Shown here one piece after another: positions 918-5,273 of a stretch of DNA of 5,273 bases. Every line of letters begins with the position of its first letter. Positions within the stretch are counted from its first letter, which is position 1. The position numbers and the translations under genes are program-made. The stretch is from an uncultured Archangium sp. (lineage in GTDB: Bacteria; Myxococcota; Myxococcia; Myxococcales; Myxococcaceae). The stretch lies in contig CAMLFP010000387.1 of the NCBI GenBank assembly GCA_946479335.1, positions 1-5,273 on the forward strand, given 5' to 3'. The notes under the pieces were generated by a model. That model was not told the origin of the DNA. It was given only the letters and a program-made list of their open reading frames with translations, and did no database searches.

Positions 918-1898
918 TCATGAAGTTGCGTGAAGCCTGGGCGGCGCCGCCACCACCAGCCCCCGCCCATCTTTGCAGGCGAAGAGGCGATCTCCCGGGA
1001 GCGTCGCCACGCCGCGATCGCGCGCAGCGCGGAGACAGTCGTCGATCAACTCCGCCGTCAACTCGACCCCCTGCGCCGCCAACCACGCCGCGAGGGCGCG
1101 CCGCGCGATCGGTCGCGGGAGCGCCGCCAACTCTGCGGGGAAGTGCGCAGGCATTGCGCCGTCGGTGAGCAGCGCGCGCGACGCCTGGCGCGTCAGCTCC
1201 GCGTCGTCTTCCGCCGCCAACGCAGCAAAGCGGGCCAACGCTCGCTCGACGCCCGGCCCCGCTGCGGCCGCGAGCGCCGGCAACACCTGCTTGCGGACCC
1301 GCGTGCGCAGGAAGCGCTCGTCGTCATTCATGGCGTCGTGCGCCACCGGCAGCGCCAACGCCGCGACGTACGCCTCGACCTGTGCGCGGGTGAGGAACAA
1401 CAGCGGGCGGATCACCAGATCGGCGCGCGACTCGTGGATGGCCGACGCGCCCGACAGGGCCGCGCCCCGCGCCAGCCGCATCAACAACGTCTCGGCCTGG
1501 TCGTTCGCGGTGTGCGCCGTCGCGATCACCGAGAGCCCCCGCGCCGATCGCACGGCCTCCAGCGCGGCGTACCGCGCGACCCGCGCCGCGGCTTCCACCC
1601 CAGCGCCTGACACGCGCGCTTCACGCACATGGTGCGGCACCCCGAGCGCCTTCGCTGCGGCGGCGACCGCCAGCACCTCGTCGCCCGCTTCCGCCCGGAG
1701 CCCATGATCGACGGTGAGCGCCTCGAGCCGGAGCCCCAGCCGCCCCGCGATCCGCGCCGAGGCCGACAGCAGCGTCATGCTGTCAGGGCCTCCCGAGACG
1801 GCCAGCAGCACCCCTCTTTCAGTGGGGACCAGCCGGCGGAATGCGCGCCGTAAACCGTCCTCAACCACTTGAATCGCCTGGGCTTTTTCAGCTTCCAC
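918..1898 (-). CDS. tilS: tRNA(Ile)-lysidine synthase TilS
   Basis: Cytoplasmic N-type ATP pyrophosphatase that joins lysine to C34 of tRNA-Ile with anticodon CAU, so that it reads AUA and is charged with isoleucine. Numbering from the GTG at 1898 (326 residues): the PP-loop SGGPDS is at 35-40, VDHGLR at 63-68, the family block ATAHTANDQAETLLMRLARG at 126-145, and the tRNA-recognition motif NDDERFLRTRVR at 191-202. A helical region follows and the protein ends soon after LPGDRLFACKDGRGLVV. It is therefore of the short type, without the full extra C-terminal domain of the 432-residue E. coli enzyme. The start is uncertain. The frame is open back to a TTG at 1970, but that codon has no Shine-Dalgarno and lies inside the small RNA described below. 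GTG at 1898 or GTG at 1868 (AGG 8 bases upstream, P-loop at residue 25) fit the family better. The stop is 46 bases before ftsH. Confidence 0.95.
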   Translation of the reverse strand: MEAEKAQAIQVVEDGLRRAFRRLVPTERGVLLAVSGGPDSMTLLSASARIAGRLGLRLEALTVDHGLRAEAGDEVLAVAAAAKALGVPHHVREARVSGAGVEAAARVARYAALEAVRSARGLSVIATAHTANDQAETLLMRLARGAALSGASAIHESRADLVIRPLLFLTRAQVEAYVAALALPVAHDAMNDDERFLRTRVRKQVLPALAAAAGPGVERALARFAALAAEDDAELTRQASRALLTDGAMPAHFPAELAALPRPIARRALAAWLAAQGVELTAELIDDCLRAARDRGVATLPGDRLFACKDGRGLVVAAPPRLHATS

Positions 1899-1926: not shown

Positions 1927-1955
1927 TTGCGTAAGTGCCTCGGGCTGCATACTAT
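1927..1955 (+). promoter_or_regulatory. Candidate promoter of the small RNA
   Basis: TTGCGT (1927-1932), a 17-base spacer, then TACTAT (1950-1955) gives sigma-70-like elements that would start transcription near 1962, about 13 bases before the first hairpin. The match is moderate: 3 of 6 at -35 and 4 of 6 at -10. A sigma-54 alternative is TTGACG, 5 bases, TTGC (1916-1930). It has a perfect TTGC -12 element but only one G of the invariant -24 GG. I recall that pxr of M. xanthus is reported to depend on sigma-54, so both are worth keeping. The core CATACTATG (1948-1956) is palindromic, so a -10-like hexamer also faces tilS. Confidence 0.4.
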
Positions 1956-1961
1956 GTCGGT

Positions 1962-2084
1962 GACTTCCAAACGTTGGACCCTGGGGTTTCCCCCTCCCCT
2001 CCAGGGTTCACGGGATTGGATCGGTTCGCCGGTCCATCCCTCTTTTCAGGGCGCTCCATGGCTGGATGGAGCGCCCGGTTTTTT
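1962..2084 (+). ncRNA. Structured small RNA with three hairpins, Pxr-like candidate
   Basis: No protein frame explains this intergenic stretch, but as plus-strand RNA it folds into three back-to-back hairpins. SL1 pairs 1975-1986 with 1999-2010 (12 pairs, two of them G-U) around an all-pyrimidine 12-base loop, TTTCCCCCTCCC. SL2 pairs 2012-2024 with 2029-2040 (12 pairs, one bulged T, one G-U) and is capped by a TTCG tetraloop. SL3 (2049-2076) is a perfect 11-bp stem followed by six T, an intrinsic terminator. A U-rich linker (TCTTTTCA) joins SL2 and SL3. Three stem-loops with a cytosine run in SL1 are the known architecture of Pxr, the Myxococcus xanthus small RNA that blocks fruiting-body development during growth. 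A C-to-A change in its cytosine run restored development in an evolved strain. Homology to Pxr is my inference from architecture and the likely host; I could not align it. The 5' end is estimated from the candidate promoter. It is divergent from tilS and convergent with the lipoprotein gene. Confidence 0.68.
2049..2084 (+). terminator. Rho-independent terminator of the small RNA
   Basis: Perfect 11-bp stem, 2049-2059 (GGGCGCTCCAT) with 2066-2076 (ATGGAGCGCCC), loop GGCTGG, two G, then TTTTTT at 2079-2084. The T-run follows only on the plus strand; the minus-strand copy is followed by TGAAAAGAGG. It therefore terminates rightward transcription. As no plus-strand protein gene lies upstream, it argues for an independent RNA gene. 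Its last T is also the first base of the reverse-complemented stop of the lipoprotein gene. Confidence 0.9.
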
Positions 2085-4126
2085 CACTCGCGCGCGTACC
2101 AACCGATGTTGCTGCCGCGCGTGTCATTCGCGGAGCACGCGAGGCTGCCGATGTTGCGCCGGCCGAACGCGGCGACCGACGGCGTGATCGCCCCGGAGCT
2201 CTCGCCGATCACCCGCACCGTCGGGAGCGGCGTACCGCCGTCAGGCAGCGAGCCGATCAGCGCGCGCCCGGGCCAGTCGATGTCGGCCACGTGCCACAGC
2301 TGGCATGGCGCGCCCAACAGCACCGTCTCTGGCGCAATCGGGATGGTGGCGATCGGCGTGGCGCCACCGAAGGCGAACACGCGCACCACCGGCTGCGGCG
2401 CGAGGTAGCACTTGCCCGCACCGAACGGCGTCCCCGCGTCGCCGGGCGCATCGGCCACGCAGCGCTGGTTCGTGGGGCAGGTGCAGGCCTCGCCGTCGTG
2501 GCAGCCGGGCGTGTCGTCGACCACACAGGCGACCGGGTTGGCCGGCGTGCGCTTGTCTTCGAAGTAGTGCACCAGCACCGGGTAGGTGCAGCCCGCGTCG
2601 CAGCCGACGTCGTGCTCGGGCGAATTGAGCGTGATGCTCTCCGCGGGAGGCAGGCCGCCGCCCTTCTCGTCGCGATCGAGCACCGGGTCATCGGCGTTGC
2701 CCGGCTCGCCCCAGTCGAAGTTGAAGCCCGGGTGCGCCGGCAGCACGGTCTTCGCGGCGTAGCCGTTGAGGTCGCCCGACGTGTTGCCGTTGGAGGCCTC
2801 GAAGAACGAGAAGGCGCCGGTGAAGGCGTCACCTCCGTCGAGCGCGCTGGGGCGCACGAGATGGAGATCGAGATCGACGTTGGCGAAGTCGGCCCACTCG
2901 AGCTGCACGACGAGATCGCGCTTGAAGCTGACCGCGAACTGCAGCGTGGTCGACGAGCTCGCGCCCTGCGTGTCGGTCACGGTGAGCTGCACCACGTAGC
3001 GCCCCACGAGGGTGAAGTACTGCGCGATCTGCGGGGTGTTGCCGAGCGGACGGTTCACGACGCCGGTCGGGTCGGAGAGCAACGTCCACGCGAAGGTGAG
3101 CCCGGTGCGGCCATCTTCCACGTCGCCAGAGCACTTCGTCACGTCGCTGTCGTCGCTCACCGCCGAGAACGTCACCTGCTCCCCGGGGCGGACATCGCGC
3201 ACGCTGGTGAGATCGACGGTCATGCCCATCACCTGCGCCCAGTCGGCCGCGGAGCTGTAGTCGCGGGTCTCGCCGGTGCTCTCATCGCGCGTGCGGATCA
3301 GGTTCGCGCACGTCAGCGGCGGGCTGTTGGGCTGGAGCGTGCCCTGCAGGTCAACCGACACCGATGGTTGCGCCGGGTCATCGGAGGCGATGGTGAAGGT
3401 GCCGGCGTACGTGGTCTGCGCCGCGCTGGTGGGCACGAACTCGATGGGCACGTTGAAGCCGGTGCCGGGGTCGAGCGCGAAGCCACCGTCGGGGAAGACG
3501 TTGTTCGCGCCGAGCCTGAACGCCGGCGCGTCAAGGCCTCCGAAGACGAGCCCGTCGATCGCCAGCGGCACCTCGCCCGCGTTCACCACCACCACCGTCG
3601 GCAGGGTCGTGGGGTCGACCTGCATGGCGCGCATCATGGGCTCCTGGCCGAAGTCGATGCCCAGCGGGTCTTGCGTCACCGCGTCGGTGCAGCTGCGCTG
3701 CGCGGTGCAGTCGAGCGTCACCGCGATCTGCGCCTGCGCGCCCTCGCCCGCCATCGCCACCAGGAGCGACGGGTGATCAGGGTCGTTGCTCTTGATGTTG
3801 AGCCGCGCCGGGAACGCGGCCACCGCGTCGGGCGCGAACGTCACCGCGAGGACCTTCGAGCCCCCGGCTTCGATCGTCGTCGGCACCGACCCCAGCGCGA
3901 ACTTCGAGGCCGCGGCGCCCTCGATGGTGACGCTGGTGATCTCCACCGGGGCCGCCGTGCGCGAGGTCAACGTCAGCACCTTCGTCGCGACGCCACCGAC
4001 CTTCACCTTGCCGAAGTCGAGGCCCGTGGGCGTGGTGGTGAGCGAGGGCTGCACCTTCGTGACCTTCGAGCCGCACTGGCAGGCCTCGAGCACCACGAGC
4101 GCCACCATTCCAAGCGTCAGTCGCAT
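2084..4126 (-). CDS. Large secreted lipoprotein with two choice-of-anchor-D (ASH-like) domains and a PKD-like domain
   Basis: Predicted exported, lipid-anchored protein of 680 residues; the exact role is unknown. The N-terminus MRLTLGMVALVVLEAC is a short lipoprotein signal with lipidated Cys16. Glu at -2 of the lipobox (LEAC) is unusual. Two immunoglobulin-like ASH/choice-of-anchor-D repeats follow, at about 28-128 (GLDFGKVKVGG to IKSNDPDHPSLLVAMAGEG) and 150-264 (GIDFGQ to IASDDPAQPSVSVDLQGTL). A PKD-like fold comes next at about 300-400 (LTFAWTLLSDPTG, GRYVVQLTVTDTQG). At about 403-530 is a domain with VDLDLHLVRP and DPVLDRDEKGGG, typical of myxobacterial surface proteins. A Cys-rich stretch at 534-573 (CTCPTNQRC) suggests disulfides, and a final beta-rich region includes LWHVADIDWPG. 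The frame is open to 4249, but the ATG at 4126 is chosen because it begins the signal peptide. No strong Shine-Dalgarno precedes it. It is divergent from the small-protein operon. A structural or adhesive surface role is inference. Confidence 0.9.
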   Translation of the reverse strand: MRLTLGMVALVVLEACQCGSKVTKVQPSLTTTPTGLDFGKVKVGGVATKVLTLTSRTAAPVEITSVTIEGAAASKFALGSVPTTIEAGGSKVLAVTFAPDAVAAFPARLNIKSNDPDHPSLLVAMAGEGAQAQIAVTLDCTAQRSCTDAVTQDPLGIDFGQEPMMRAMQVDPTTLPTVVVVNAGEVPLAIDGLVFGGLDAPAFRLGANNVFPDGGFALDPGTGFNVPIEFVPTSAAQTTYAGTFTIASDDPAQPSVSVDLQGTLQPNSPPLTCANLIRTRDESTGETRDYSSAADWAQVMGMTVDLTSVRDVRPGEQVTFSAVSDDSDVTKCSGDVEDGRTGLTFAWTLLSDPTGVVNRPLGNTPQIAQYFTLVGRYVVQLTVTDTQGASSSTTLQFAVSFKRDLVVQLEWADFANVDLDLHLVRPSALDGGDAFTGAFSFFEASNGNTSGDLNGYAAKTVLPAHPGFNFDWGEPGNADDPVLDRDEKGGGLPPAESITLNSPEHDVGCDAGCTYPVLVHYFEDKRTPANPVACVVDDTPGCHDGEACTCPTNQRCVADAPGDAGTPFGAGKCYLAPQPVVRVFAFGGATPIATIPIAPETVLLGAPCQLWHVADIDWPGRALIGSLPDGGTPLPTVRVIGESSGAITPSVAAFGRRNIGSLACSANDTRGSNIGWYARE

Positions 4127-4151
4127 GCGTCGCTTGTAGCTGGGAATTGCG

Positions 4152-4180
4152 TTGATAACGGCACCCATCTGTCGGATAAC
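4152..4180 (+). promoter_or_regulatory. Sigma-70-type promoter of the small-protein operon
   Basis: TTGATA at 4152-4157 (5 of 6 to TTGACA), a 17-base spacer, and GATAAC at 4175-4180 (4 of 6 to TATAAT). Transcription would start near 4187, giving a leader of about 36 bases that contains the GGAGA ribosome site at 4209-4213. It lies in the divergent gap between the lipoprotein start (4126) and the first small gene (4223), and is more AT-rich than its surroundings. Confidence 0.55.
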
Positions 4181-4181
4181 G
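4154..4181 (+). repeat. Direct repeat GATAACG x2, possible operator
   Basis: GATAACG occurs at 4154-4160 and again at 4175-4181, exactly 21 bases apart (two helical turns). The first copy overlaps the -35 element and the second is the -10 element. Ribbon-helix-helix regulators commonly bind tandem short repeats over their own promoters, so this could be an autoregulatory site for the adjacent genes. Two 7-mers could also be chance or simply promoter sequence. Confidence 0.35.
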
Positions 4182-4222
4182 CAGCGCGATTCCCCACCAC
4201 CCCATTCTGGAGACGTACAAAC

Positions 4223-4423
4223 ATGTCCGGCACCGACAAGCGCAAGCAATCGCTCTACTTCCCCGAGGAGATGCTCAAGGAGATCCAGGAAGAGGCGAAC
4301 CGTCAGGACCGCTCCCTCTCGTGGGTGGTGCAGCAGGCGTGGAAGATCGCGCGGGAGCGCATCAAGTCGTTCCCCGCGGTGAATGACGTCGCCGGCGCGC
4401 CCGACCCGAAAGAGGACCGCTGA
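4223..4423 (+). CDS. Small ribbon-helix-helix-like protein, copy 1 (TIGR04563-like family)
   Basis: 66-residue protein. The core KQSLYFPEEMLKEIQEEANR reads as a beta strand (KQSLYF) followed by a helix. The turn DRSLS and a second helix (WVVQQAWKIARERIK) complete the strand-helix-helix order of Arc/MetJ/CopG-type DNA-binding proteins. The tail (about 50-66) is polar and probably disordered. I believe this matches a small conserved family of Myxococcales and relatives (TIGR04563, from memory). DNA binding is inferred from fold order, not shown. The ATG at 4223 is supported by GGAGA at 4209-4213, nine bases upstream. It is first in a two-gene operon with a paralogue 2 bases downstream and a clear promoter upstream. 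Transcriptional regulator, or antitoxin-like protein without a toxin partner, are the alternatives. Confidence 0.92.
   Translation: MSGTDKRKQSLYFPEEMLKEIQEEANRQDRSLSWVVQQAWKIARERIKSFPAVNDVAGAPDPKEDR
4411..4416 (+). promoter_or_regulatory. Ribosome binding site of the second small gene, within the first
   Basis: AGAGGA lies in the last codons of copy 1, nine bases before the GTG at 4426. The copy-1 stop TGA (4421-4423) is 2 bases before that GTG. This arrangement indicates translational coupling, and it decides for the GTG start of copy 2, which has no nearby ATG. Confidence 0.7.
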
Positions 4424-4425
4424 GC

Positions 4426-4611
4426 GTGTCGACGACCGATCATCGCAAGCAGTCGCTGTATTTCCCCGAAGAGATGCTCGCGGAGATCGAGCGCGAGTCT
4501 CAACGGCAAGATCGGTCGCTGTCGTGGATCGTGCAGCAGGCCTGGAAGATCGCGCGCACTGACATCAAGCGCATGCCGTCTCCCAACGACGTGCTGCAGC
4601 AGCACCCGTAG
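4426..4611 (+). CDS. Small ribbon-helix-helix-like protein, copy 2 (TIGR04563-like family)
   Basis: 61-residue paralogue of the preceding gene, starting at GTG with a good internal Shine-Dalgarno. The two share KQSLYFPEEML, then EI, E, RQDRSLSW, VQQAWKIAR, IK and NDV, so the whole strand-helix-helix core is kept while the first-helix surface (AEIERESQ against KEIQEEAN) and the tails differ. Many codons for identical residues differ between copies, so the duplication is old and both are under purifying selection. Ribbon-helix-helix proteins act as dimers, so the pair could form homo- or heterodimers; this is inference. The gene ends 3 bases before the stop of the convergent chimeric frame. Confidence 0.91.
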   Translation: MSTTDHRKQSLYFPEEMLAEIERESQRQDRSLSWIVQQAWKIARTDIKRMPSPNDVLQQHP

Positions 4612-4614
4612 TCT

Positions 4615-5094
4615 TCAGTTCGACGGGCGGGCCGGCACCGCGCAGTTCGCGAAGGTGATCCGGCTCGCGTCGACCTTGAACCCCGCCTCCACCGTCGAGT
4701 TGAACGCGCTCTGCTTCAGGTACGCAGCGGTGATGTTCGAATCGATGCCCGCGAAGCGCTGCGCAGTGCTGAGATTGCGTGACGCATCATCGCGGACGCC
4801 GTCGAGCATCGTGTAGCCGTCGCTCCCCTTGAGAATGTAGTCAGACGTCGCAACGCGAAACGCCTTCTGCTCGATGGGCCGGCCCGGCGTGGTGAGCGCC
4901 TCGCCACCGATCTTGAGCGAGGTGACGCGCGAGCCCGCGGGCAGCGCGCAGTCGACGTGCAGCTCGACCGCGTCAGACACCTGGAGGAACGAGCCCGCCG
5001 GCGAGGCGATGACCTCGCTGTCGGGGAAGAGCCGCTCCACCGAGTGCTCGAACATCGCGTAGACCTGCGCCTCGGAGAGATCGACGGCCTGCGC
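4615..5094 (-). pseudogene. 5'-nucleotidase, C-terminal domain only
   Basis: About 157 residues match the 5_nucleotid_C fold of secreted bifunctional metallophosphatase/5'-nucleotidases (UshA type), which dephosphorylate nucleotides outside the cytoplasm. Recognisable parts are DLSEAQVYAMFEHSVE, FLQVSD, PAGSRVTSLKIGG and the hallmark FRVATSDYILKGSDGYTML. In the last motif Ser replaces one Gly of the usual GGDG(F/Y). The roughly 350-residue catalytic metallophosphatase domain with its metal-binding Asp/His/Asn residues, and the signal peptide, are absent. What remains cannot be exported or hydrolyse substrate. Confidence 0.8.
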
Positions 5095-5273
5095 GAGGCG
5101 GCCCGCCTGGCTCGCGTCCTCGAGCGAGGCGATGAGATCGCCGAGGGTGCCGTAGTAGACGCGCCGCCCGCTCTCGGCGGCGGCAATCGCGAGACTGATC
5201 GCGAGGTGCGTCTTCCCCACGCCCGGGGGGCCGAGGAAGATCACGTTCTCCCGGCGCTCGATGAAGCCCAAGG
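4615..5273 (-). CDS. Chimeric open frame: truncated IstB ATPase fused to 5'-nucleotidase C-terminal domain (partial, likely non-functional)
   Basis: The frame is uninterrupted and enters from the right edge. The leftmost possible start in view is a TTG at 5271, which is an internal Leu of IstB, so the true start is outside. Counting from that Leu, residues 1-59 are IstB-like (P-loop GPPGVGKT at 14-21) and end at SQAGRL. From about residue 62 (VDLSEAQVYAMFEHSVE) to the end at 218 it is the C-terminal substrate-binding domain of a UshA-type 5'-nucleotidase. The switch falls near bases 5085-5095. Neither family naturally continues into the other: IstB should go on to its Walker B (VIDE-type) motif, and the nucleotidase should be preceded by a metallophosphatase domain. 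Neither activity is expected to survive. A deletion next to an IS21-type element, or an assembly join, would explain it. Confidence 0.85.
   Translation of the reverse strand, partial: LGFIERRENVIFLGPPGVGKTHLAISLAIAAAESGRRVYYGTLGDLIASLEDASQAGRLAQAVDLSEAQVYAMFEHSVERLFPDSEVIASPAGSFLQVSDAVELHVDCALPAGSRVTSLKIGGEALTTPGRPIEQKAFRVATSDYILKGSDGYTMLDGVRDDASRNLSTAQRFAGIDSNITAAYLKQSAFNSTVEAGFKVDASRITFANCAVPARPSN
5095..5273 (-). mobile_element. istB: IS21-family remnant: 3'-truncated istB
   Basis: IstB is the AAA+ helper that works with the IstA transposase to select targets. What is seen is the segment GFIERRENVIFLGPPGVGK, THLAISLAIAAAESGRRVYY and GTLGDLIASLEDASQAGRL, a close family match covering Walker A. 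Walker B, sensor regions and the right terminal inverted repeat are missing because the sequence switches to nucleotidase near 5095. istA and the left end, if present, lie beyond 5273. Transposition in cis is unlikely without the second end. Confidence 0.85.

Follow-up and report, generated by a model that had tools for sequence, protein, structure and literature searches.

A small RNA with a conserved C-rich loop beside tilS, apparently representing an undescribed family in most Myxococcales genomes searched

Open-access searches on myxobacterial small RNAs return papers on Pxr and little else. Pxr blocks development while nutrients are abundant. The Pxr locus lies behind pxrR and has a predicted sigma-54 promoter, and the group is reported to lack Hfq (PMC5684412). 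C-rich loops are also described in small RNAs of other bacteria: GsrN, an sRNA switched on by a general-stress sigma factor, uses a cytosine-rich 5' loop to bind G tracts in mRNAs (PMC5869019), and the rhizobial sRNAs SmelA075 and SmelA099 carry CCUCCUCCC loops that are termed anti-Shine-Dalgarno (PMC3927594). A listing-level search of the open-access literature on myxobacterial sRNAs and their parallels found no named tilS-linked myxobacterial RNA. However, such a transcript may already be catalogued, because PMC9548883 gives sRNAs from M. xanthus RNA-seq in its supplements.

The stretch of DNA analysed here (the window, 5,273 nt) had been proposed, in a sequence-only reading, to encode beside tilS a three-hairpin RNA that is a likely relative of Pxr. 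The proposed anatomy was borne out when positions 1950-2100 of the + strand were folded, which recovered three stems of 12, 12 and 11 pairs, a UUCG middle loop, a C-rich first loop and a terminator (Table 1). The free energy of the fold is -71.1 kcal/mol, compared with -52.6 on average for shuffled sequences (z -4.65), and none of 200 shuffles was as stable, in agreement with the claim that such an arrangement is hard to get by chance, while the opposite strand of the same region folds more weakly (z -2.94; 2/200 shuffles as stable). It was also fair to describe the strand as free of protein genes, since the short + frames that cross the stretch have no support. A terminator scan of 1700-2300 returned two sites with 0.5 expected, namely SL3 and SL2, the latter followed by UCCCUCUUUU; because this U-rich tail comes after it, SL2 is a possible first terminator. 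Because the candidate promoter fails the sigma-70 scan, transcription from about 1962 is plausible but no more than that. The window RNA has the features of the C-rich-loop sRNA class, with a conserved unpaired C-rich loop on a stem, an intergenic position and a terminator.

Table 1. Features of the window RNA and its gene neighbourhood
Feature	Coordinates	Strand	Description	Basis
Candidate promoter of the window copy	1927-1955	+	TTGCGT-17-TACTAT (-35/-10-like)	Below sigma-70 scan threshold
SL1	1975-2010	+	12 pairs, C-rich loop 1987-1998	RNA fold
SL1 loop	1987-1998	+	UUUCCCCCUCCC in the window; proposed target-pairing site	
SL2	2012-2040	+	12 pairs, one single-base bulge, UUCG loop 2025-2028	RNA fold
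SL3 and U run (intrinsic terminator)	2049-2084	+	SL3 2049-2076, 11 pairs; U run 2079-2084	
tilS, tRNA lysidine(34) synthetase	918-1898	-	Divergent neighbour of the RNA	TIGR02432, 149.5 bits
Choice-of-anchor-D gene	2084-4126	-	Convergent, abutting the terminator	NF012200, 82.1 bits
Tandem TIGR04563 small-protein genes	4223-4423, 4426-4611	+		TIGR04563, 122.3 and 110.9 bits

Alignment to relatives places the start of tilS most likely at GTG 1898, versus TTG 1970 of the mechanical ORF. The window TilS is 98% identical to a metagenomic protein (over 82% of the query) and 65% identical to TilS of Archangium sp. MAGs; its best match among the genome contigs, at 66%, is that of an uncultured Archangium MAG (L001). 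The start of the choice-of-anchor-D gene was picked by eye inside ORF 2084-4249, and its product is a putative lipoprotein. Both TIGR04563 proteins weakly resemble ribbon-helix-helix proteins. The window also contains part of ftsH, and in a single frame at 4618-5271 (-), residues 2-63 are IstB-like while residues 68-157 match the C-terminal part of a 5'-nucleotidase. This frame could be what is left of an IS21 element, or it could come from an assembly join close to the window end.

The same RNA lies upstream of tilS in the Archangium MAG mentioned above. For a wider survey, the order and the family were taken as Myxococcales (145 genomes) and Myxococcaceae (96 of these, leaving 49 outside). 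A DNA search of the family genomes found a copy in eight at E<=0.001. The consensus of nine sequences has 35 pairs, 14 of them changed on both sides, and the covariance model built from these sequences (R1) matches 124/145 order genomes at E<=0.01, although the 20-bit match in G118 is probably false. A core model comprising SL1-SL2 from 30 diverse copies (R3) was run on 195 phylum-level genomes that included the 145 of the order. At E<=0.01 it matches 129/195 genomes, 126 of them strongly (>=52 bits); the strong matches fall in 125/145 genomes of the order and in 1/50 others (G166), while those in G091, G150 and G153 are weak only (26-27 bits). In another 188 genomes drawn at phylum level, the single match at E<=0.001 scored 33 bits and lacked both tilS and a U tail. 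Among the 20/145 order genomes that have no strong R3 match, 10 of the 19 with a listed size are <=3.9 Mb. M. xanthus carries a copy (L197), and no Rfam family scored above its cutoff in the 21 scanned sources that carry the tilS-linked RNA. As judged from sequence comparison, the window RNA is one copy of a separate and apparently undescribed small-RNA family present in most of the order genomes searched.

Weak matches were treated separately. Eleven such loci (L274-L279, L282-L284, L318 and L321) were set aside, as no tilS occurs in any stretch retrieved; the weak match in L318 corresponds to a tRNA-Pro gene followed by a hairpin, and that in L321 is SL1-like and has no U tail. The weak matches in G091, G150 and G153, and those at second sites in G117 and G092, lie outside these eleven. 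A second match in G009 (L274 1427-1489, + strand, 27.5 bits) combines an SL2-like, U-tailed hairpin with a shortened SL1 part and has no tilS. In genome G140, the RNA is tandemly duplicated beside tilS (L254 1388-1467 and 1486-1563, + strand), with the C-rich loop in both copies.

The position of the RNA is fixed with respect to tilS, which lies divergently upstream in 124/124 genome loci with a strong match examined; the strong matches in G011 (at a contig edge) and G082 are outside this count. An alignment of 98 rows (A6) was assembled from the window, 96 genome loci and L279, a 20-bit match. tilS is present in 97 rows and absent from L279, and it was scored divergent in 96, the window being scored negative because the mechanical ORF begins 72 bases upstream of the likely start. 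tilS is likewise divergent in 25/25 loci kept out of A6 by a limit of 100 sources, and by coordinates in L315 (the G166 locus), L316 and L317.

Compensatory changes upstream of tilS, proposed in the sequence-only reading as a check, were found. In A6, which was fitted to the covariance model and whose pairing counts include the L279 row, 96.6% of cells are paired, versus 78.5% in shuffled and <=60.3% in slid controls, and two-sided changes occur at 29/35 pairs (574 such cells versus 140 in shuffles). A MAFFT alignment of 30 core sequences, which was not model-fitted, still showed two-sided changes at 15/22 pairs. By element, 7/12 pairs of SL1 are changed on both sides with 99.6% of cells paired over the 98 rows, 11/12 pairs of SL2, and 11/11 pairs of SL3 among the rows having it. 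A structure kept with compensatory changes in relatives indicates a real RNA. The paired columns also report on the strand: in 97 sequences (L279 dropped here and in the counts below) G-U pairs number 374 and A-C pairs 24, an excess that points to selection on RNA of the + strand. The intergenic inverted repeats could in principle be a DNA-level element, for example a repeat of terminator type separating tilS from its neighbour. However, tilS reads away from the element, and the G-U excess, the conserved single-stranded loop and the U tail on the + strand all speak for an RNA, leaving this explanation a negligible chance.

Letter conservation across the 97 copies is highest in the SL1 loop (99.3%, gaps aside), compared with 91% in the SL1 stem, 65% in the stem of SL2 and 75% in that of SL3. 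The loop is 10-13 bases long and takes the form UCCCCCCCCUCCC in 63 copies, UCCCCCCCUCCC in 24, UCCCCCCUCCC in five, the window form UUUCCCCCUCCC in three, and CACCCCUCCC and AUCCCCUCCC in one each. Since the loop is more conserved than its covarying stem, it is likely the working part of the molecule. SL3 is less widely distributed: it has >=9 standard pairs in 67/97 copies, and of the 30 without it, 29 are from outside the family (L143 being the exception), where six copies do score an SL3 that may be a chance hairpin. In 25/35 A6 copies from outside the family, the nine bases that follow SL2 include >=6 U. The general lack of SL3 there, together with the U residues after SL2, argues that the ancestral form was probably an RNA of two hairpins terminating at SL2, to which the family would then probably have added SL3.

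Downstream of the RNA the neighbours vary. Among 100 loci, 70 (the window among them) have a TIGR04563 gene on the same strand, 20 have a choice-of-anchor-D relative in convergent orientation, in one case at a distance of 1 kb, and 10 have neither; the convergent genes of the window and L249 were left uncounted because they overlap the model end by 3-5 bases. In many of 25 loci inspected (for example L148, L150 and L152), a markedly similar stretch (TCACCTCGAATCCGCCCCGGAGAC...) stands right before the TIGR04563 start codon. In 69/99 non-window loci this gene lies on the RNA's strand and 54-538 nt beyond it, which raises the possibility that the RNA is a cis-acting leader or attenuator of the gene, and the mean pairing of the loop with TIGR04563 start regions (-8.7 kcal/mol versus -7.0 for shuffled) is in keeping with this. 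However, strong pairing (<=-10 kcal/mol) with these starts is not in excess (12/70 versus 15/70 shuffled), the 20 loci that have a convergent gene instead keep both the loop and the stems, and the window pair of TIGR04563 genes is 2.1 kb away. In addition, the hairpins appear independent of each other in the consensus folds. We thus consider a cis-acting role improbable.

The assignment to Pxr was the part of the sequence-only reading that did not hold. The Pxr family model RF01812 found nothing in the window at E<=10, although it scores the M. xanthus Pxr (L117) at 129.2 bits as a positive control. Pxr was located with a published primer in 7/10 genomes, and six of the copies (L113 left out) were used to build a second model, R2. 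This model likewise gave no match in the window at E<=10, and over nine sources carrying the tilS-linked RNA its sole match was 12.5 bits (E 0.34, L122). At E<=0.01, R2 matches 94/145 order genomes, all of them in the family, with scores no lower than 31 bits. A comparison of the tables places both RNAs at separate sites in 87/145 order genomes, and 37/49 order genomes outside the family have the tilS-linked RNA only, with no Pxr match. Membership in Pxr was rejected on the lack of an RF01812 or R2 match and on the separate Pxr-like loci in the same genomes. The alternative offered in the same reading, that the RNA would otherwise be a new structured RNA, is the one that stood, as the family is conserved and distinct. 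In the whole genome of the nearest named contig's source (G001), two tandem Pxr-like copies of 58 bits each (Rfam cutoff 80) lie behind a sigma-54 response regulator (L319 1465-1572 and 1705-1817, + strand).

The surroundings of the window RNA also differ from those of Pxr, its neighbours being tilS and the convergent choice-of-anchor-D gene, with no pxrR. The sigma-54 promoter consensus TGGCAC-N5-TTGC, with <=2 mismatches allowed, occurs in the window only at 445 and 4104, a chance-level result, and nowhere near 1975. What the two RNAs share is the layout of three hairpins with a C-rich SL1 loop. R1 also scores 15.7-22 bits at six Pxr loci, with E between 1.9e-6 and 3.1e-4 over 23 kb, and these two points are the case for a Pxr ortholog relocated beside tilS and gating development. 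Such scores mean that the two may be distant kin. In the window RNA, however, the Pxr loop word GGUUCCCCCCCACCCC is missing at <=3 mismatches, and local similarity to Pxr is no better than in shuffles (87/500 as good), the score falling from 20 to 15 when the Pxr loop is masked. The M. xanthus copy is borderline (29/500 shuffles as good), and since its score drops only from 24 to 21 on masking, the match there involves more than the C run. With separate Pxr-like loci in the same genomes, including the tandem pair behind a sigma-54 activator, and a tilS-linked family extending to genomes beyond the reach of any Pxr match, relocation of Pxr is most improbable. A different history, which we offer only as a speculative and quite unlikely one, would make the tilS-linked RNA an old, order-wide C-rich-loop regulator, ECF-controlled in most lineages, and Pxr a derived copy that moved to a new locus, came under a sigma-54 promoter and took on control of fruiting-body development.

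Upstream of most copies there is a promoter-like motif, GGAAN-N15-19-GTT/GTC, which we take to resemble ECF-type promoters such as the EcfG consensus. It occurs <=70 nt upstream in 68/97 copies versus 6.4 in first-order resamplings, a comparison in which kinship among copies is uncorrected, and in 66/3505 other 70-base stretches. The variants are GGAAT (43), GGAAA (17) and GGAAC (8), with spacers of 17-19, and a looser form, counted without a control, is present in 79/97 copies. The strict motif is missing upstream of the window copy and of 28 others among the 97, including the M. xanthus copy, which has the looser form only. The sigma factor of GsrN is of the ECF type. GGAA[T/A/C]-N17-19-GTT in most relatives suggests control by a stress-type sigma factor, and in the window copy such an ECF-type motif is absent, lost or replaced.

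Taken together, the most likely reading, and one more probable than not, is that the RNA is a trans-acting sRNA that uses its C-rich loop to pair with G-rich sites in mRNAs, in the manner of GsrN. The RNA would be transcribed away from tilS and end at the intrinsic terminator, and it would act in trans, with the UCCCCCCCCUCCC loop pairing with G-rich stretches of mRNA leaders, either G tracts or ribosome-binding sites, and thereby changing the translation or stability of the target mRNAs. SL2 and SL3 would serve as terminators and shield the RNA, and a short SL1-SL2 form may arise at the U-rich stretch that follows SL2, beside the full-length one. Target searches did not clearly support such pairing. 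Complements of the loop that are 13 bases long, with <=1 mismatch, numbered 350 in six genomes together, versus 388 for the reversed control, and are not enriched. In 400 kb of one 9.3-Mb genome, loop pairing of <=-10 kcal/mol was found in 18.1% of start regions versus 13.2% of internal ones (n=243, crude gene calls), and the 16S tail, for comparison, gave 11.5% versus 5.3%. The predicted starts are poorly called, because GGAGG stands upstream in only 26/243.

A loop that is nearly all C and conserved, with complementary sites unenriched in the six genomes, could also mean that the loop recruits or sequesters a C-specific RNA-binding protein instead of seeding base pairing. Rho and KH-domain proteins are candidates for such binding. 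This reading is less probable, since no partner protein emerged from the analysis, and sRNAs for which pairing to G-rich mRNA or to ribosome-binding sites is reported have the same build, with a short stem-borne C-rich loop (PMC5869019, PMC3927594).

The tilS-linked RNA is found in more order genomes than Pxr (125 strong matches versus 94), at a fixed locus and with a loop conserved beyond its stems. If it proves to be a stress-controlled C-rich-loop regulator, it would extend an alphaproteobacterial mode of control to a group reported to lack Hfq and provide Pxr research with a second, probably older RNA for comparison.

Among the described systems, Pxr (RF01812) resembles the tilS-linked RNA in its three hairpins and C-rich SL1 loop (GGUUCCCCCCCACCCC in Pxr) and occurs in the same order and often in the same genome; it differs in its locus behind pxrR, its predicted sigma-54 promoter, its stems and the confinement of its matches to the family. 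GsrN of Caulobacter crescentus likewise has a cytosine-rich loop in a 5' hairpin and a length of ~100 nt (PMC5869019). A stress sigma factor activates GsrN, whereas for the tilS-linked RNA there is a promoter-like motif in relatives; GsrN has full-length and short 5' forms, whereas two terminator-like hairpins may point to such forms here. GsrN also belongs to another bacterial class and targets the katG leader. Against sRNAs of other bacteria, relatives of the window RNA scored below cutoff, with 30.5 bits for ar14, 26.3 for BjrC68 and 23 for Xoo2; for ar14 (RF02344) this best score (L125) compares with a cutoff of 58.8, and the window gave no match at E<=10. ar14 itself has C-rich anti-Shine-Dalgarno-like loops. 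Together with SmelA075 and SmelA099, it shares with the tilS-linked RNA such a loop, several hairpins and variable stems. The two rhizobial sRNAs carry the motif in every hairpin (PMC3927594), whereas the tilS-linked RNA carries it in SL1 only.
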